Virus record (IMG/VR): IMGVR_UViG_3300049893_002024
Span: 1-24,065 of that record
Source: a virus
Length of the DNA stretch: 24,065 nt
Direction: 5' to 3' (one strand)
Part shown: positions 2,594 through 24,065 of the stretch, piece after piece
How the letters are laid out: every line of letters begins with the position of its first letter
Position numbering within the stretch: the stretch's first letter is position 1
The notes under the pieces: model-generated
Seen by the model: the letters and a program-made list of their open reading frames with translations, nothing else
The model's database searches: none
Told to the model about the DNA's origin: nothing
Made by a program: the position numbers and the translations under genes

Positions 2594-5068
2594 ATGTCTA
2601 CAGATAATCAACTGTTAGCACTTGTGGCCGAGCGCCAGCGTAAGCTGATGTTGCGCTCGTGTTTCGACGCCGAGCTTCTAGACAGCCGTCCAAATGCAAA
2701 GCAGTGGGAATTCTTTAATGACATAAAAAACGTTAGATTCCGATGGGTTGTGGCCGGCAACCAGTGTCTTGCTGAAGGCACTCTAGTTGCCACACCGAAA
2801 GGCCCTACACCGATTGAGCAACTGTGCGTCGGGGACACTGTATACTCCGAGCATGGAAAAGAAATAAAGATAATCAAAACGCATTTCAACGGAATTAAAT
2901 CCGTGCGTAGTTTAACTTGTAGAAATAAGCAACTAGCCGAATGCACTGACGAGCATGTATGGCTCACTACGCATGAGAACGGAAAAATACAGGAGCTTAA
3001 GACTAGTGAGTTGACATCTAGACACTATGTCCTGAAACGGCAGGTTAAATCCCCATTGGGTAATGTACATGAACCACATGCATATGCCATGGGGGCTTTG
3101 CTTGGGGACGGATGCTGCAGGGAAGATAGTCTGACACGAATAAGCATATCTTCCGAAGATCACGTAATACCTGAGAAGGTGTGTCAAGTACTTGAAGGTA
3201 CTAATGTGTATCGTCAACACATTTTAAATTACACATGGAGAATCCAGTGTAAAATTCCAGGATGGTATAAGGATCATCTAGAAGGCAAATATGCTCATGA
3301 GAAATTTATACCACTAGATATTATCAAGAGCTGGGATCGTGAATCTTTATTAAATTATGTAGCGGGGTTGCTGGATACAGACGGTAGCGTAAGTAAGGCT
3401 TCTGATCACGTATCGTTTGCTCTTGGAATGCAGGCCAAAGAAGTGGTAGATTCTTTTAGGTATGCGGTATTAGCCTTATGGCAGGTCGATTTATCCTTCA
3501 GAGAGGATGCTAGATCTAAATACAAGAATGGAAGCGTGTGGGTAGCGTATACTAGAAACTCTAATGAAGTTAAACTAATACTAAGTGAACTAGGCCCATA
3601 CCTAGCTCTGGAGCGTAAAAGATGGAAGCCAGAGTACGAAGGTGTGGGCGGAATGAGAAGTAGTCTATCTAAAACTAATGCGCACAAATCTGAGCGGACT
3701 AGATTGGCGTACACTTATGACATTACTGTAGATAGCGAAACCAATCTATATCTACTTGCCAACGGGATGGTAACACATAATAGTGGCAAATCGTCTAGTG
3801 GAGCTAGAGAACTAGCTTGGATACTTAATGATGATCACCCACACTGGAAACGTCCAGATCATTGGGGGACCGGCCCACTTAAAGTAATTGTGGCCGGCAA
3901 GAGTAGGGACATATTAACAATCGAACTTTGGCGCGGAAAGCTTAAGCCATTACTCACAGGTAACTGGAAAGAGATAATGGTGCAAAGGAATATTGTCGGC
4001 GCGGAAAATGAAGACACTGGTGACTATATATTATTCCTCTGCCATGGTGATGGTAGCGATTTAACTATCGACCGAATGCAAGGGTATGTTGCCCATTACG
4101 TGTGGTGCGATGAGATGCCGGCGGAGGTTAGGGTACTCACCGAACTTCAAATGCGTGTTAACTCTCGACAAGGCTATTTTGTTGGCACGTTTACTCCTCT
4201 TGCTGTTAACAGTGAAATCAAGAATATGGTAGATGCCAGCGACGGCAAGCTTAGTAAGCGATATATATTCACCATGTTCGATAACCCTCGCTACGCAGGT
4301 AGAGAGGATGAGATTTGGCAACAAGCATCTAGCTGGCCTGTGCGCGAGCGCAGGGCACGTCTATTTGGCGAATGGTACCAGAGTGACAGTTCTGTATATG
4401 AATTAGACCGCTCTATGGTAGTAGTGAATATGCCTTCATCATATTCACCGGCATGGCGGCATCATGTTAGTGTGGACCCGGCGCTTAGTAGTAATACAGG
4501 TCTGGGTGTATACGCTGAAGATCCAGCTACTGGTGTTTGGTACTGCATACGGGCAGATTATATTAAAGAGAAAGATCCAGATAGACTCTGGGAAGAGATC
4601 TGGAGGCAAGTTAAGTCAGAATATGCTAACTTGAATATATCACGCTGTAGCACCGACGTTGCGCCGTGGTTTCAGGCGCTCTGTACAAAGAATAAAGTAA
4701 CCTTCTTGCAACCATATAACAAAACACAACGCAAAGATGAGCTTATAAAAAACTTGCAATCTGCCCTGTCATCTGGTACACTTAAACTCGTTGCTGGAAA
4801 AACTGATGGACTGCTAGATGAATTTGAAACTTGTAGATATAGCGACTCCCAGGAAGGCAAGATTGTTGCTGGACAGAAATACCACTTACTAGATCAAGCT
4901 CAGTACTTTATCGATACTAAAATAAAATCTCCCGCACCAATACCTACAAGCGTTGGGCGGGATGAAATAATTATGCAGATGTTTGAGAAACAAAAACAAC
5001 AGGAAGCGGCGGCGAAAGCTAACGCTATATCGCGCGTTCAGCGAAGGAGAAGTCGATGGTCAAGATAG
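2594..5068 (+). CDS. Terminase large subunit with intein
   Basis: The motor and nuclease that packages and cuts phage DNA at the portal. The precursor is 824 residues; removing the intein (58-396) leaves a 485-residue protein, normal for the family. The Walker A loop is split: AGNQ (54-57) joins SGKSS (397-401) after splicing. Walker B is HYVWCDE, with D506 and catalytic E507. The C-terminal RNase H-like nuclease shows candidate metal-binding aspartates at D628 (HVSVDPALSS), D688 (CSTDVAPW) and D767 (HLLDQAQYF). Until the intein leaves, the ATPase site cannot form, so activity depends on splicing. Start ATG follows TAGGTAACATTTA. It overlaps the portal gene by 13 bases. Confidence 0.95.
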   Translation: MSTDNQLLALVAERQRKLMLRSCFDAELLDSRPNAKQWEFFNDIKNVRFRWVVAGNQCLAEGTLVATPKGPTPIEQLCVGDTVYSEHGKEIKIIKTHFNGIKSVRSLTCRNKQLAECTDEHVWLTTHENGKIQELKTSELTSRHYVLKRQVKSPLGNVHEPHAYAMGALLGDGCCREDSLTRISISSEDHVIPEKVCQVLEGTNVYRQHILNYTWRIQCKIPGWYKDHLEGKYAHEKFIPLDIIKSWDRESLLNYVAGLLDTDGSVSKASDHVSFALGMQAKEVVDSFRYAVLALWQVDLSFREDARSKYKNGSVWVAYTRNSNEVKLILSELGPYLALERKRWKPEYEGVGGMRSSLSKTNAHKSERTRLAYTYDITVDSETNLYLLANGMVTHNSGKSSSGARELAWILNDDHPHWKRPDHWGTGPLKVIVAGKSRDILTIELWRGKLKPLLTGNWKEIMVQRNIVGAENEDTGDYILFLCHGDGSDLTIDRMQGYVAHYVWCDEMPAEVRVLTELQMRVNSRQGYFVGTFTPLAVNSEIKNMVDASDGKLSKRYIFTMFDNPRYAGREDEIWQQASSWPVRERRARLFGEWYQSDSSVYELDRSMVVVNMPSSYSPAWRHHVSVDPALSSNTGLGVYAEDPATGVWYCIRADYIKEKDPDRLWEEIWRQVKSEYANLNISRCSTDVAPWFQALCTKNKVTFLQPYNKTQRKDELIKNLQSALSSGTLKLVAGKTDGLLDEFETCRYSDSQEGKIVAGQKYHLLDQAQYFIDTKIKSPAPIPTSVGRDEIIMQMFEKQKQQEAAAKANAISRVQRRRSRWSR
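2765..3781 (+). mobile_element. LAGLIDADG-type intein in the terminase P-loop
   Basis: A 339-residue in-frame insertion with all splicing blocks. It begins CLAEGTLVATPKG with nucleophilic Cys (residue 58), has the TxxH motif of block B (CTDEHVW), and ends YTYDITVDSETNLYLLANG followed by MVTHN with the terminal His-Asn pair before Ser+1. The central endonuclease has two LAGLIDADG motifs, MGALLGDGCC (D172) and VAGLLDTDGS (D261/D263). Block D-like KFIPLDII and block H-like YLALERKRWKP are also present. All catalytic positions are intact, so both splicing and homing are expected to work. It would home into terminase genes lacking the insertion at this conserved site. Confidence 0.95.
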
Positions 5069-18226: not shown

Positions 18227-21200
18227 ATGGCAGATGATAAAGTAGCAATACAGGATAGAACCTTTGTCCTTGGTATCGATGCCGAAAAGAGCGAAGATCA
18301 GCTGCCTGTCGGAAGCTGTGAAGATATACTTAATGGGTACATTGAGGCGGGTAGAATCAATAAACGCAAGGGACAAGAATACAAGGGGGCGTTACCCATT
18401 AACGTTGTTGGGGTGGATGCACAGACGGGTAATAACGCGCTTTACTTTCTGCTCAGTGCAAATGTAGATTCCGGTACTTTATCTGATTATCTGAGCGATG
18501 CCGGGGATATTCAAATATGTGGTAGCCTTTTCTATTCTAATATCTCTGCCGCATATAATATGCCACTGTTTGGGTTTAAACGCTATAAGATCTATAGTGT
18601 GGATAAGACCAATGAATATGTTAATATCGTCTATGATATTGATCATGAGTTAGTTACTGGGGATCGGGTAGTATTTACCCATGCCATCGGTGACACCGAG
18701 GTCGTCGCCTGTACGGACGTACTGGACGCCACGATGAGCTACTATGTTCGTTTAATCACTACAACGGCGGCAGCTGCGGGTGATCCTGCCATTGCTAGTT
18801 ACACGCTCCACACGACGCGCCAAGACGCTTTCGATGGGACAAATAACATTGTATGGGAAGCAGATCCGAACGATACCGTAAGTCCTTTGCCGACTTACAT
18901 GGTTCAGCCCAGAATTATCGCCCGTGATAATTTGACAATACCTTCCGGTAGTTATACATTAGGTACGTTTCCTGACGGGCTAGTTTATATCAAAGCAGAA
19001 AACATAACAGATGTAACGGTAGCAGTAGACGAAGAAACCATACCCTGTGTACTCTCTCTGTATGGTGGGAATGTCGGGGCGGCTTACAGCGAGAGCATTG
19101 AGCCCGAGCATATTGACAGTTACAAAGTCCCCGCCGGCAGCAATCTCCTTTGCGGCGCAGAGGGTATTGAATATCGTGAGGTAACCGACCCTGGGTTGGT
19201 TACCAGCTACCCTCGCATCCGAGCGAATATAGACGACATCCGCGTCATTGGCCCTGCTATTTACGACACGGGCGAAACTCCGGGCCGCACTAGTTACTAT
19301 ATGACGTGCGATAATGGTGGTAGTCACTTTGTTCAGGTGACGCAGTTTGAGTATGTATCTGGAACCACCTGCCGCGTACACTGCTACGCAGCGAACAAGA
19401 AAGTATTTACACAGTTAAATACTGAGGTACCTGGTGGCGCGCTTAGCACGGTGATGAAGCCCGGATACGACCAAGTAACACTGACCAACATGCGTCGCAG
19501 TGAACTTAATGGAGTGTTTGAGATAGTTGACGTGGCCACCACTGGTCCTGATACGTTTTACTTCGCTGTAACCATGGACGATATAGTAGACAATAGATAC
19601 GACGAGACTGGACTGCTTGGCGAAGCAGCTGTTTATAGCGATAAGATCTCCGTCACTGAGAATAATCTCATTGTCGGCGATAAATTAAATCACTACAGTC
19701 TTCGTGATGTTAATGGGGAACTGCTTTATGACACGTACGTCATAAAATCCGATTCTGTAAGTGTGGTAGTATCTCCCCTACAAGATCCAGTCACACTGGT
19801 AACTAGTTATACGCAAGATTTAACCACAGTTGATAGTAGCTTTATTCCCTGTATCCGTACGTCAACGGCCATTCCTATGCGCGGACCTTATGGCTATGAG
19901 GCAAGTGCTACGTTTCATCAAGATGACTTTAACGTCACTGCCAACTACATATCCATCACACCGTCCAGCAGTGATGCTGATTATGGTTTCACTATTTACG
20001 ACACTGTCGTAATTACTGGGGAAGGACCACTGCCTCCGCCACTAAAAACACATCAGCGATATGTTATTATTGACTTCTACCAAGGAGATCAGAATAAGAT
20101 AATTCTAGGATATAGTGCGGAGGATGTAGATGAGATTGAGTTTGGTAGTTACACACCGCCAGAGAGTCCGGTGGCTACTACATTTACAATCAGAGCAATT
20201 ACCTGTGATATAGTTGCCGGCGACTGTGTGCAATTCTCTGATGAAGGATACACACACCGCGTGGTCAGTACCTCGACTAGCATTACCTTGCCTGGACTTC
20301 GTACAGTTACTTTCCCTTACGAAGTAACCGCAACAGACTGTGAAGATTTTAGTTGTTATGTGAAGATAGTTAATCGATATGAGCCGCTTACTTCGCCGGT
20401 CGATGATTACCTATCAACCAACCCTATGCATCCAGTTAATCTGGTGGATAATACAAATCAGTCCCGCTCCGCTATGGTTAGTGGTTGTATGTATTTTACT
20501 AACTACATCGATCCCGTGCGTAAGTTTGACGGAGAGAATCATTACCGTGCAGGTATTATTCCTTTCCGGCCAACTATAGGAATGACACTAGACACATCTG
20601 CCTCCGACAAAGTAGATATACTGCCCCCTAGCTTAGCTAGTGTGTCTGCTACCGCTGGTAGTACACTACTTAAATTCGCAGCTACGCCAGAGAATGTGCG
20701 CATATTCGTACCGGGCGATATTGTCCGTCTCGGCACAGATACTGTAGATTATACTGTTGTTGCAGTGAATGTAGACACCACGACAGTGGCAGGCCCTACT
20801 ACACTCACTACTGGAACAATTACGCTAGACAAAGCAGCCAGTAGTACCGCTAGTGTTACTGTTACGAAACAGATATATTATCGGTACTATTTCAGATTTA
20901 ATTACGTCGATGCGCAGAACAACATTGTTGCGTCTGCCTGCACCGATCCGTTCGGTGCGGAGATGCGATTAACTGCTTCGGCAGCAATAAATATCCACCT
21001 GTGTAATTTGCCTACTTTTGATTACTTTAAATACTATGCCATTGATGTGGAGATATATCGTACCAAAATAGACAGCTTAAATGTGTTCTATAAAGTAGCC
21101 AGCGTACCGCTTACATTCGACGCTGGTCAGAATTACGTGCACTATGTTGATAGCAAGAATGATAGCGATCTAACTCAAGTGGATAACGTCATGAGCGCGC

Positions 21201-23194
21201 TGCTTGGAAACAATCTAGGTACAGCGTGGAGCGACGCCCCTCGTGCCAAGTACATCTCTTCTGTCGATAACAGACTGGTTCTTGGTAACATAAAAACCAA
21301 CCCAGAGATTGATGTGTCCTTCAATTTCCCCGCCTCAGTTGCCGTATCTGGTGGGGCCGGTGTTGATGATTTAGTGTTTGTACTCGCGCAGCAAGAGCCT
21401 GAAGTAGTGAATAGTGCTCCTATTGACTTTTACTCCCCCGAAGATTACGTACATAAATTTATCTTCACAGCGGACACCTTCACAGCTATTACTGTTGACA
21501 CTGAGAGTGGTGATACAGTGACAATGGATAGAGGCTCTGCACATGGTTTATCTGTCGGTGATTGGGTATATATCAAAAACACAGCGGCTGCAAGTGCTAA
21601 TCCTGATCTAACATACACAGGTTGGTGGCAAGTATTTGCAGTACCTACTGCAAATAAGTTTTCATTCCACTGTAGCTATCGTGATGCAGGTACTCCTACT
21701 TATACCTACATTGCAGACACATTTGGTCGGGTGCCGATATCCTTAATTACCGATGAGAATCAGCTTAATACTGTAAGTAGTGAGATCAACAATAGATTAG
21801 CTGATAACCTAGCTAGAGCCATTAACGCGGTCATGGCCAGCGTTGATCCATATATTGACTTTGGTACAAACGATTTATATCAATACGATTGGTCGCCTTG
21901 GCTGATCGCCAAGGCTGGGGGGTTGTTTAAAAAGGGCCAAATAGTGATTGAATCACCGGTCGGCAAAGATATCGTTGCTTGGTTTGAACCAAAATCAATA
22001 GCGACCGCCGGACGTAGTTATGTGTCCATAAATGGCAGCCGCGTAACAACCGGAGAGATCGTACAAAGTGTTACTCCACTATACCCCTCTCGTATTGCCG
22101 TAAGTTATTCTAACTTCCCGGAGATGTTCGATAATCTGCGTGCATCTAACCCAGAAGAGAGCGATAGTATAATTGACGTGAACAGCTCGGACGGGGAAGA
22201 GATCACCGGCATGATCCCATTCTTCGGTGAAGCGGCATTTGATCAAAGTAAGCAAAGCGCCAATATTGTTGTGTTTAAAGAAAATAGCATCTACATTGTA
22301 GATGTTAGACAGAAAGAACTGTATCGGGTAACAGGTGGTGCGCGTGGATTGGCCAACCCAGTTCAGAGACTTGAAACGAACGGCATTGGCTGCACTGCTC
22401 CGTACAGTATTGCTGCCAGTAAGCATGCGATATTCTTTGCCAATGAGTCGGGCATCTGGGCACTGGGGCGGGATCTTTCTGTAAACTTTGTAGGCGAACC
22501 ACTGGACCGCTTATGGGCGCGGACTAATAAAGATTACCTTAGTTTATATCACGGGCACCACGATCCGAAGAACCGTACCTACATGCTAAGCTATACAAAT
22601 GGAAGTGATGAGACATTTGACGATGCATTTGTATTTAAACATTCCGTAGACCAGCCTGCTGGTAGCTGGACTAGGTACGACAACATTCCCGCTCTGGGAT
22701 GGGCAAATCTCAATTATGAGAGCCGATATCTGTCCACTAGTGGCGAGGTATGGGGATGGAGGGATTTGGGCCTTACAAGCGATTTTAGAGACGACGCTGA
22801 CGGTATATCTACGGAGGTTACATTTCGAACCATTAGCTACGGGGAAGAGGGGATACGGATGAATGCCAAGTATGTACTTGGATACTATAAGCCCTATACC
22901 CAGATCGACAACATAGATCTGTATTATGCTACGGACTTTAATACAACATGGACTCAGGCGGGTAGCTTTAGTATTGATGTGGATACAACCACCGATAACC
23001 TCAGCGACCTTGGTAGTAAAAAGATGGAAATGATTAAGCATGGACTTGCGGACACTAGGTGCCACCATCTTCAACTTAAACTAGTTTGGGATGGGGCAGA
23101 CGAGGCAATGGACTTTGCTGGCTGGGTATATAGAGTTACGCCTTTGGATGACAAAGGAATAACGGAAGCCGGCGAAACTTCAGGGGCAAATTAA
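18227..23194 (+). CDS. Very large tail nozzle-like protein (tail tubular B/gp10-like)
   Basis: A 1655-residue beta-rich protein predicted to form the tail nozzle below the adaptor. The N-terminus has the family-like segment LPVGSCEDILNGYIEAGRIN (24-43) then KRKGQ. The C-terminal 350 residues resemble nozzle proteins (VVFKENSIYIVDVRQKELYR, ETNGIGCTAPYSIAASKHAI, FFANESGIWALGRDLSVNF). The middle contains many Thr/Val-rich beta segments with no recognised enzyme motif. Known nozzle proteins are much shorter (T7 gp12 about 800, P22 gp10 about 470), so this one probably has large inserted domains reaching outward. The ribosome site is weak, GAGTGAG. It could also include fibre-attachment or host-contact domains. 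Confidence 0.7.
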   Translation: MADDKVAIQDRTFVLGIDAEKSEDQLPVGSCEDILNGYIEAGRINKRKGQEYKGALPINVVGVDAQTGNNALYFLLSANVDSGTLSDYLSDAGDIQICGSLFYSNISAAYNMPLFGFKRYKIYSVDKTNEYVNIVYDIDHELVTGDRVVFTHAIGDTEVVACTDVLDATMSYYVRLITTTAAAAGDPAIASYTLHTTRQDAFDGTNNIVWEADPNDTVSPLPTYMVQPRIIARDNLTIPSGSYTLGTFPDGLVYIKAENITDVTVAVDEETIPCVLSLYGGNVGAAYSESIEPEHIDSYKVPAGSNLLCGAEGIEYREVTDPGLVTSYPRIRANIDDIRVIGPAIYDTGETPGRTSYYMTCDNGGSHFVQVTQFEYVSGTTCRVHCYAANKKVFTQLNTEVPGGALSTVMKPGYDQVTLTNMRRSELNGVFEIVDVATTGPDTFYFAVTMDDIVDNRYDETGLLGEAAVYSDKISVTENNLIVGDKLNHYSLRDVNGELLYDTYVIKSDSVSVVVSPLQDPVTLVTSYTQDLTTVDSSFIPCIRTSTAIPMRGPYGYEASATFHQDDFNVTANYISITPSSSDADYGFTIYDTVVITGEGPLPPPLKTHQRYVIIDFYQGDQNKIILGYSAEDVDEIEFGSYTPPESPVATTFTIRAITCDIVAGDCVQFSDEGYTHRVVSTSTSITLPGLRTVTFPYEVTATDCEDFSCYVKIVNRYEPLTSPVDDYLSTNPMHPVNLVDNTNQSRSAMVSGCMYFTNYIDPVRKFDGENHYRAGIIPFRPTIGMTLDTSASDKVDILPPSLASVSATAGSTLLKFAATPENVRIFVPGDIVRLGTDTVDYTVVAVNVDTTTVAGPTTLTTGTITLDKAASSTASVTVTKQIYYRYYFRFNYVDAQNNIVASACTDPFGAEMRLTASAAINIHLCNLPTFDYFKYYAIDVEIYRTKIDSLNVFYKVASVPLTFDAGQNYVHYVDSKNDSDLTQVDNVMSALLGNNLGTAWSDAPRAKYISSVDNRLVLGNIKTNPEIDVSFNFPASVAVSGGAGVDDLVFVLAQQEPEVVNSAPIDFYSPEDYVHKFIFTADTFTAITVDTESGDTVTMDRGSAHGLSVGDWVYIKNTAAASANPDLTYTGWWQVFAVPTANKFSFHCSYRDAGTPTYTYIADTFGRVPISLITDENQLNTVSSEINNRLADNLARAINAVMASVDPYIDFGTNDLYQYDWSPWLIAKAGGLFKKGQIVIESPVGKDIVAWFEPKSIATAGRSYVSINGSRVTTGEIVQSVTPLYPSRIAVSYSNFPEMFDNLRASNPEESDSIIDVNSSDGEEITGMIPFFGEAAFDQSKQSANIVVFKENSIYIVDVRQKELYRVTGGARGLANPVQRLETNGIGCTAPYSIAASKHAIFFANESGIWALGRDLSVNFVGEPLDRLWARTNKDYLSLYHGHHDPKNRTYMLSYTNGSDETFDDAFVFKHSVDQPAGSWTRYDNIPALGWANLNYESRYLSTSGEVWGWRDLGLTSDFRDDADGISTEVTFRTISYGEEGIRMNAKYVLGYYKPYTQIDNIDLYYATDFNTTWTQAGSFSIDVDTTTDNLSDLGSKKMEMIKHGLADTRCHHLQLKLVWDGADEAMDFAGWVYRVTPLDDKGITEAGETSGAN

Positions 23195-23205
23195 ATAATT
23201 AATTT
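23188..23205 (+). other. AT-rich hairpin at the nozzle gene stop codon
   Basis: AAATTAA (23188-23194) pairs perfectly with TTAATTT (23199-23205) around ATAA. The TAA stop (23192-23194) is at the top of the 5' arm. The -35 box of the next promoter begins six bases later. Confidence 0.55.
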
Positions 23206-23210
23206 TGTCC

Positions 23211-23239
23211 TTGACTGTCGTTTTCAAATAGCGTACACT
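23211..23239 (+). promoter_or_regulatory. Sigma70-like promoter after the nozzle gene
   Basis: TTGACT (23211-23216) and TACACT (23234-23239) with 17-base spacing. Transcription would begin near 23246 and run through a structured region with no gene before a second promoter at 23415. Confidence 0.65.
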
Positions 23240-23261
23240 CACCACATACAACGGGGGTTGG

Positions 23262-23372
23262 GCGTTACTATATATTAGCTATAGTAATGCTTATAGCGTA
23301 GCTACTAGCTAAGCTGATATATAAGCGGGCCTGATATAGTAGCTACTAGAGCAGATATTATATGATCATATA
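23262..23372 (+). ncRNA. Structured intergenic segment, candidate non-coding RNA or leader
   Basis: GCGTTACTATA (23262-23272) pairs with TATAGTAATGC (23280-23290), an 11-pair stem with one G-U pair and a 7-base loop. GTAGCTACTA (23298-23307) pairs perfectly with TAGTAGCTAC (23337-23346). A 14-base palindrome, TATATGATCATATA, lies at 23359-23372. Stop codons interrupt all useful frames. It lies downstream of the promoter at 23211 and upstream of the one at 23415. It may be a small RNA, a regulatory leader or a set of DNA-binding palindromes. Confidence 0.35.
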
Positions 23373-23414
23373 TTAGGGCGGGATTAGTGGCCGTATTCTT
23401 ATATAAAGTAATCT

Positions 23415-23443
23415 TTGACATTTAGCCGGTATTGTGCTATTAT
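23415..23443 (+). promoter_or_regulatory. Promoter of the right-edge gene
   Basis: TTGACA (23415-23420), 17-base spacing and TATTAT (23438-23443), preceded by TGC as an extended -10. Start of transcription near 23450 leaves a short leader before ATG 23478. Confidence 0.8.
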
Positions 23444-23477
23444 TAGTCAGTAATATTGGGATATATTCGGAGGATCT

Positions 23478-24065
23478 ATGGCATTCAACTTCAGCTTTGA
23501 TAATATAAAAGCAGAGACATCTCCGAAACTTAAGGTAGATAAGGGCACAAATAAGAAGGTAGGGGCTGATGGGCAGGTAGTCGCTGCCTCCACAGGCACG
23601 ACTACAAGTCCTCTGCAGGCCGCTACCGAAGGTGTCAGCCCAGATCAAAGTAAGATGGTTGGAACGCCTGCCCAGAAACAGTCAGCTCGTGACACCGCTC
23701 AGGTAGATAAAGTCGAACTGGAGAAGCAAAAGGCAGCAGCCAACGATAAGATTGAACGCATGAAGGCCGCCGAGACTTTCGGGTCGCTTAAGGTACAAGT
23801 AACTGATTTACTTGAAGCAGCCAATACCTCCAGTGCGTTATCCGCCGACACAACAGATCCACTGGATGTGTCGGACGTCGCGTCCGTGGGTAAGCTATTT
23901 ACGGATAATGGGCTGACTCTAACTACCGCCGACATGAACGATCCAGTCGTCTTTGCTCAAAAAGTGAAGGATCTAAAGGCCAAACTAGCTACTACACATG
24001 GTGACGCCTATGCCGATCAGATGGCCAGTAAGCTAGCATCGGGACTCAGTAATCTAACTGCCGAC
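23478..24065 (+). CDS. Alanine-rich virion-like protein, cut by the window edge
   Basis: The frame starts at ATG 23478 after GGAGG and is still open at the last base, giving 196 residues so far. The N-terminus (MAFNFSFDNIKAETSPKLKV) is followed by a Thr/Ala-rich linker (AASTGTTTSPLQAATEGVSP), a charged helix (ARDTAQVDKVELEKQKAAAN) and an acidic/Ala-rich region. This suits an internal virion (ejection) protein or another structural protein, as expected after a nozzle gene in podoviruses, but the family is not recognised. It has its own extended -10 promoter. Confidence 0.6.
   Translation, partial: MAFNFSFDNIKAETSPKLKVDKGTNKKVGADGQVVAASTGTTTSPLQAATEGVSPDQSKMVGTPAQKQSARDTAQVDKVELEKQKAAANDKIERMKAAETFGSLKVQVTDLLEAANTSSALSADTTDPLDVSDVASVGKLFTDNGLTLTTADMNDPVVFAQKVKDLKAKLATTHGDAYADQMASKLASGLSNLTAD

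Follow-up and report, generated by a model that had tools for sequence, protein, structure and literature searches.

What happens in the 283 bases between two genes of an uncultured phage: is a structured RNA made there, or does transcription simply start there? The window that we analyzed is a whole virus contig of 24,065 bases, which carries a P22/SU10-type portal. The gap at 23195-23477 is bounded by the stop codon of an open reading frame (ORF) and by the ATG of the next gene (Table 1). It ranks second in length among the stretches between ORFs; the one at the left end is longer (the lengths are 322, 283, 195, 162 and less). A sequence-only reading had placed two promoters and several repeats in the gap, and had suggested that it encodes a small RNA or a regulated leader. 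Our analysis points instead to a probable tandem-promoter region with a long 5' leader, whose two sites are separated by a repeat-prone stretch that changes fast. The papers found by a literature search look unrelated to this gap, as judged from titles and the starts of abstracts.

The gap and its neighbors

We rejected a gene inside the gap because there was no plausible ORF, which bears out the earlier view. The ORFs of at least 20 amino acids that touch the gap are four on the minus strand and a 24-amino-acid ORF on the plus strand, which starts with GTG and overlaps the downstream gene.

The window's upstream protein had no match in PHROGs or Pfam, so its earlier name ("nozzle") was not confirmed. 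Two of the nine aligned members of this protein's family weakly matched a virion structural protein in PHROGs. The downstream gene had no match in Pfam or PHROGs. Elsewhere in the window, a terminase-like ORF (2594-5068) seems to bear an intein: its match to Hint_2 was above the cut-off, and its matches to Intein_splicing, LAGLIDADG_3 and Terminase_6N were below theirs. A small predicted metallopeptidase-like protein (DUF6782) lies at 1467-1853.

Table 1. Features in and around the gap, in coordinates of the window.
Feature	Position	Strand	Details
Upstream gene	18227..23194	+	1655 amino acids; called "nozzle" in the sequence-only reading
P1, distal promoter-like site	23211..23239	+	TTGACT-17-TACACT; 9/12; expected start near 23246
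Hairpin	23259..23293	+	14 pairs with G-U, 7-nt loop
Imperfect direct repeat	23290..23363	+	two 33-nt copies (23290-23322, 23331-23363), 73% alike, 41 nt apart
Palindrome	23359..23372		14 bases; read from the sequence
P2, proximal promoter-like site	23415..23443	+	TTGACA-17-TATTAT with TG-extended -10; 11/12; expected start near 23450
Ribosome-binding-like GGAGGA	23467..23472	+	5 bases upstream of the ATG
Downstream gene	23478..24065	+	continues past the contig end; 9 of the 44 records searched have a homologous start region

Two promoter-like sites in the window

Promoter-like sites were present at both of the places where promoters had been read, and the second one was indeed the stronger. 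Each is a correctly spaced -35/-10 pair on the gene's strand, with P1 weak and P2 strong. We scored them against a sigma-70-type consensus. When the gap was shuffled, a site of at least 11/12, such as P2, had P = 0.009. Two or more sites of at least 9/12 had P = 0.126, so P1 by itself is not significant. Elsewhere in the window, the pattern TTGACA-N15-18-TANNNT occurs at five places on the plus strand, some of them intragenic, and nowhere on the minus strand; a backward control of the pattern matched once. There was no terminator-like site on either strand of the gap.

Relatives of the locus

We searched for relatives of this locus in several ways. In a phage collection, the gap region and the upstream protein had no match, and the window's portal gave 17 remote matches. 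The window's own upstream protein and its capsid-position protein found no relatives as queries, and neither did a terminase query against genome contigs. A portal search gave 55 loci, and we examined 44 of their records further; the upstream protein was matched in 11 of these 44. A profile was then built from nine upstream-protein sequences (30-35% identity to the window's). It found 40 loci in viral contigs (26-41% identity in the best segment) and three in genome contigs (32-35% identity).

The stop codon and the next gene were readable in 37 of the 40 viral loci, with gaps of -4 to 454 bases if starts were chosen automatically. L109, L116 and L122 were left out, as the sequence examined lacked either a downstream gene or a stop codon. 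The 37 readable loci, L141-L143 and the window gave 41 gaps. Dropping three duplicates (L107, L124 and L126) and 11 gaps of under 100 nt left 27 distinct gaps. Start codons were assigned manually in L106, L127 and L129 before the promoter scan, and in L114 and L132 after the second promoter was seen, as was the gap in L110 (which has an insertion). The uncorrected gaps of L110, L114 and L132 were used for reading the sequences, for counting sites of at least 10/12, 8-mers and TACTA, and for the folds of 20 and seven gaps; the comparison of motif density left out L110. These loci are related by descent, and the P values are only a guide.

The promoter-like sites recur at fixed places

We considered a site to be P1 if it lay within -20 to +100 of the upstream stop, and we considered another site to be P2 if its -10 lay within 130 nt of the next start. 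Among the 27 distinct gaps of at least 100 nt, 25 had P1 (the mean in shuffles was 1.33), 11 had P2 (0.67), and nine had both (mean 0.08, maximum 2). Without the post-hoc starts of L114 and L132, both sites were present in 7 of 27 gaps, and without the correction to L110 as well, P2 was present in 8 of 27. The fixed rule counts L105 only once, even though both sites are there. All 10 gaps of at least 250 nt had P2, and eight of them had both sites. For gaps below 250 nt, the rule identified P2 in 1 of 17, and all 16 gaps that lack P2 are in this class.

The sites also have a preferred strand. Sites of at least 10/12 were found 23 times on the plus strand of 25 gaps (0.73 expected) and once on the minus strand (0.79 expected), which is no excess. 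TG precedes the -10 of all 11 P2 sites; it is absent from 13 of the 25 P1 picks. More broadly, TTGACA-N15-18-TANNNT matched 199 times in the records of 25 relatives, versus 45 matches for the control (from a summed table), and TTGACA-type sites seem to serve gene expression quite generally in this phage group. Overall, the predicted promoters are well supported. We observed the sites and their recurrence, and from these we infer that they probably act as promoters.

In three relatives (L114, L117 and L130), there is an ATG at +1 of P1. We dropped the idea of a leaderless start because there is no such ATG in L123, L128, L129, L102, L105 or the window. In L110 (from G032), the gap after the upstream gene contains a minus-strand ORF that by eye is HNH endonuclease-like (L161:849-1562), and a P2 site before the next gene is kept. 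In another relative, G058, three TTGACA-type promoter-like sites lie within about 460 bases (L160:14400-14960, minus strand).

Repeats between the two sites

The hairpin, the 10-pair repeat and the 14-base palindrome were all found where the sequence-only reading had put them. The core of the hairpin has two arms of 11 nt (23262-23272 and 23280-23290) that are 91% complementary, and the odd pair is G-T. The arms of the 10-pair inverted repeat (23298-23307/23337-23346) are 100% complementary and flank a loop of 29 nt; this inverted repeat lies inside the imperfect direct repeat. The longest stem in the gap, with a loop of up to 8 and G-U allowed, had P = 0.003 relative to shuffles, and three other settings of the stem search gave P = 0.077, 0.027 and 0.030. 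The gap contains 27 inverted 8-mers (10.1 expected, P = 0.023); for direct 8-mers, P = 0.06. The palindrome does not recur in the contig beyond chance (3 matches, 1.59 expected). A 17-base exact string from the repeat matched one contig, which by eye is unrelated.

In several relatives whose gaps are long, the stretch between the promoters abounds in short palindromic repeats. Reading the sequences, we found GTAC-type repeats in L114, L117, L128, L129 and L130, and a 15-bp unit arranged head to tail between the promoters of L123. L132 and L135 are not of the palindromic-repeat kind. Across the gaps, TACTA occurs 87 times (42.5 expected from shuffles) and is present in 23 of 27. The median density of TACTA/GTAC was 2.32 per 100 nt in 26 gaps of this family versus 0.67 in 116 other gaps (P = 2.6 · 10−5, Mann-Whitney test), for a motif that was picked from the same data. 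Compared to its own shuffles, the motif had z > 2 in 10 of the 26 gaps and in 15 of the 116 others. In the window's gap it is weak (z = 1.27), and its density there is reached by 9.5% of other gaps.

L102 and L105 are close relatives of each other. They have P1, the bases after P1, and P2 in common, and the middle, including the palindrome of L105, diverges. The stretch between the promoters is thus apparently one that turns over quickly. By eye, there seemed to be a shared 5' element after P1 in L114, L123, L128, L129 and L130; we rejected it, as a scan for the pattern returned the same five loci and seven unrelated-looking ones. In two relatives (G052 and G057), a second gap has GTAC/TACTA repeats (L149:18493-18627 and L156:2299-2429). 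The gene after this second gap starts MSLKDINKILAAAQTDL and by eye resembles the window's ORF at 920-1486.

Structure of the RNA

An RNA from P1 (23246-23477) was expected to be mostly structured. It folds at -61.1 kcal/mol, and the mean for shuffles is -58.3 (z = -0.69); 44 of 200 shuffles fold at least as well. In other words, the transcript is structured, but not beyond what is expected for its composition. The first 60 transcribed bases are more stable (z of about -2.36 to -2.50 on the plus strand). These bases are equally stable on both strands (z = -2.36 and -2.35), as expected of palindromic DNA. The most stable stretches of 60 and 110 bases on the plus strand of the gap were reached by a fraction of 0.02 of 60 shuffles, and the most stable stretch of 35 bases by 0.12. 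The window's leader thus contains one good hairpin, and its degree of structure as a whole is unremarkable.

A covariance-model search against RNA families had been proposed as a check. Searching Rfam found nothing in the gap, so we rejected a known small-RNA family there. The only match in the whole window up to E = 5 was to sR12, outside the gap at 18289-18346, with 19.5 bits versus a gathering score of 38.

We also compared the RNA across relatives. An alignment of nine sequences (A2) had 0 consensus pairs, but it is poor outside the promoters, so this is a weak test for distant relatives. The close pair L102/L105 differ in their pairing; the window itself has no close relative. From P1 to the start codon, the RNAs of 20 gaps had a mean z of -1.15 (range -4.61 in L106 to +2.68 in L142). 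From P1 to P2, seven gaps had a mean z of -1.33, and their reverse complements had -0.85. In L123, both strands are equally extreme (z = -5.04 and -4.76), which is what DNA palindromes would give.

For the first 60 bases after 25 P1 sites, the mean z was -0.84, with z ≤ -2 in 8 of 25 on the plus strand and in 2 of 25 on the other strand. As a control, the middles of 116 other gaps had z ≤ -2 in 14 and 7 cases on the two strands (21 of 232). As a group, the stretches after P1 were not lower than these controls (P = 0.18, Mann-Whitney test), and each relative with a stable stretch has its own shape. The strand bias in a minority of relatives is the strongest remaining indication of RNA hairpins downstream of P1, and it led us to lower our confidence in the tandem-promoter reading slightly.

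What the gap may do

We propose that, in this family of uncultured phages, transcription of the gene downstream of the 1655-amino-acid one starts in the gap. Two tandem promoters would both feed that gene: P1, right behind the upstream stop codon, and P2, which has an extended -10 and lies shortly before the gene's start. Because there is no terminator-like site between P1 and P2, an RNA initiated at P1 most likely forms a leader of about 230 nt on the mRNA of the downstream gene, rather than a separate small RNA. The window's hairpins most likely mirror, at the RNA level, short palindromic DNA repeats, which could bind a regulator or could be plain spacer. Several observations do not sit easily with this proposal: the window's P1 is weak, P2 is missing by rule from 16 of 27 gaps, some start codons were set by hand, the window's hairpin is long, and 8 of 25 stretches after P1 are stable on the plus strand. 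As for the repeats, the motif is weak in the window and the palindrome does not recur beyond chance.

Alternatively, the RNA from P1 might function by way of its fold, either as a small RNA or as a leader under regulation, and the hairpin at 23259-23293 would be the active part. This would fit the hairpin of 14 pairs (P = 0.003 under one of the four stem settings), the z of -2.50 for the first 60 nt, the stable stretches of 60 and 110 nt, and the excess of stable stretches after P1 on the plus strand (8 of 25; the other strand had 2 of 25, and the controls 21 of 232). But the leader as a whole is ordinary (z = -0.69), the two strands of the window's stretch have equal values, and the P1 stretches as a group are not below the controls. 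Also, the absence of an Rfam match, of a terminator-like site and of consensus pairs (in a poor alignment), together with shapes that differ among relatives, even between L102 and L105, does not support a small RNA. We consider a structure-based role to be improbable. What stands from the original suggestion is the pair of promoters, given their strand- and position-specific recurrence, and a likely leader in the plain sense, as RNA from P1 would run about 230 nt to the next start codon. The small RNA was not supported by the Rfam, terminator and fold searches, and the strand-biased excess of local hairpins after P1 in 8 of 25 relatives makes regulation of the leader through its structure conceivable. 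Another explanation is that only P2 matters (or only P1, in relatives with short gaps), so that in the window P1 would match by chance and the remainder would be neutral spacer. A score of 9/12 is often expected by chance, and 16 of 27 gaps have a single site by rule, but the window's P1 is at the position of a site that is present in 25 of 27 gaps, which makes this explanation doubtful.

The repeats between the promoters might also be putative binding sites, in an operator or activator array, for a protein, encoded by the phage or its host, that controls how P1 and P2 are used. TACTA is above shuffles (87 vs. 42.5), the motif is denser than in other gaps, the window has an excess of inverted 8-mers (27 vs. 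10.1, P = 0.023), and a second gap in two relatives has similar repeats. On the other hand, the motif was picked from the data that it was tested on, it reaches z > 2 in only 10 of 26 gaps (and in 15 of 116 others), it is weak in the window, the repeat unit differs between phages, and any regulator is just a candidate. We view such an array as possible but unlikely. More specifically, the TACTA/GTAC repeats could be a putative binding array for a regulator encoded by the phage, which would switch the genes that follow the upstream structural gene from one of the two promoters to the other. The array and its regulator would change together and quickly, each phage would have its own version, and some relatives would have a second array before the first structural genes. 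This is speculative, and rather unlikely.

Under the tandem-promoter reading, the feature would be real but of an ordinary kind, and local hairpins may still play a role in the leader. The comparison yields a map of probable transcription restarts among the structural genes of an uncultured phage family (contigs of up to 61.8 kb), whose gap and upstream gene had no counterpart in the phage collection that we searched. It also illustrates that apparent RNA structure in such a gap can stem from palindromic DNA repeats.

Comparison with known systems

Phage small RNAs and structured leader RNAs have a promoter and then a hairpin, with no gene. The gap has this arrangement, but our searches found no terminator-like site, conserved fold or Rfam match in it. 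Clusters of operators or iterons have several short dyads or direct repeats near promoters. The short dyads and direct repeats near P1 and P2 are similar, as is the 15-bp head-to-tail unit of L123, but here the unit varies from phage to phage, the two copies in the window are just 73% alike, and the binding protein is putative. Tandem sigma-70 promoters with an extended -10 occur in intergenic regions of phages. The sites described here are like them in having a TTGACA-like -35, a spacer of 16-18 nt, a TATAAT-like -10, TG before the proximal -10, and the orientation of the gene. They are unlike them in that the pair is embedded among structural genes and that a palindromic stretch which changes quickly separates P1 from P2.
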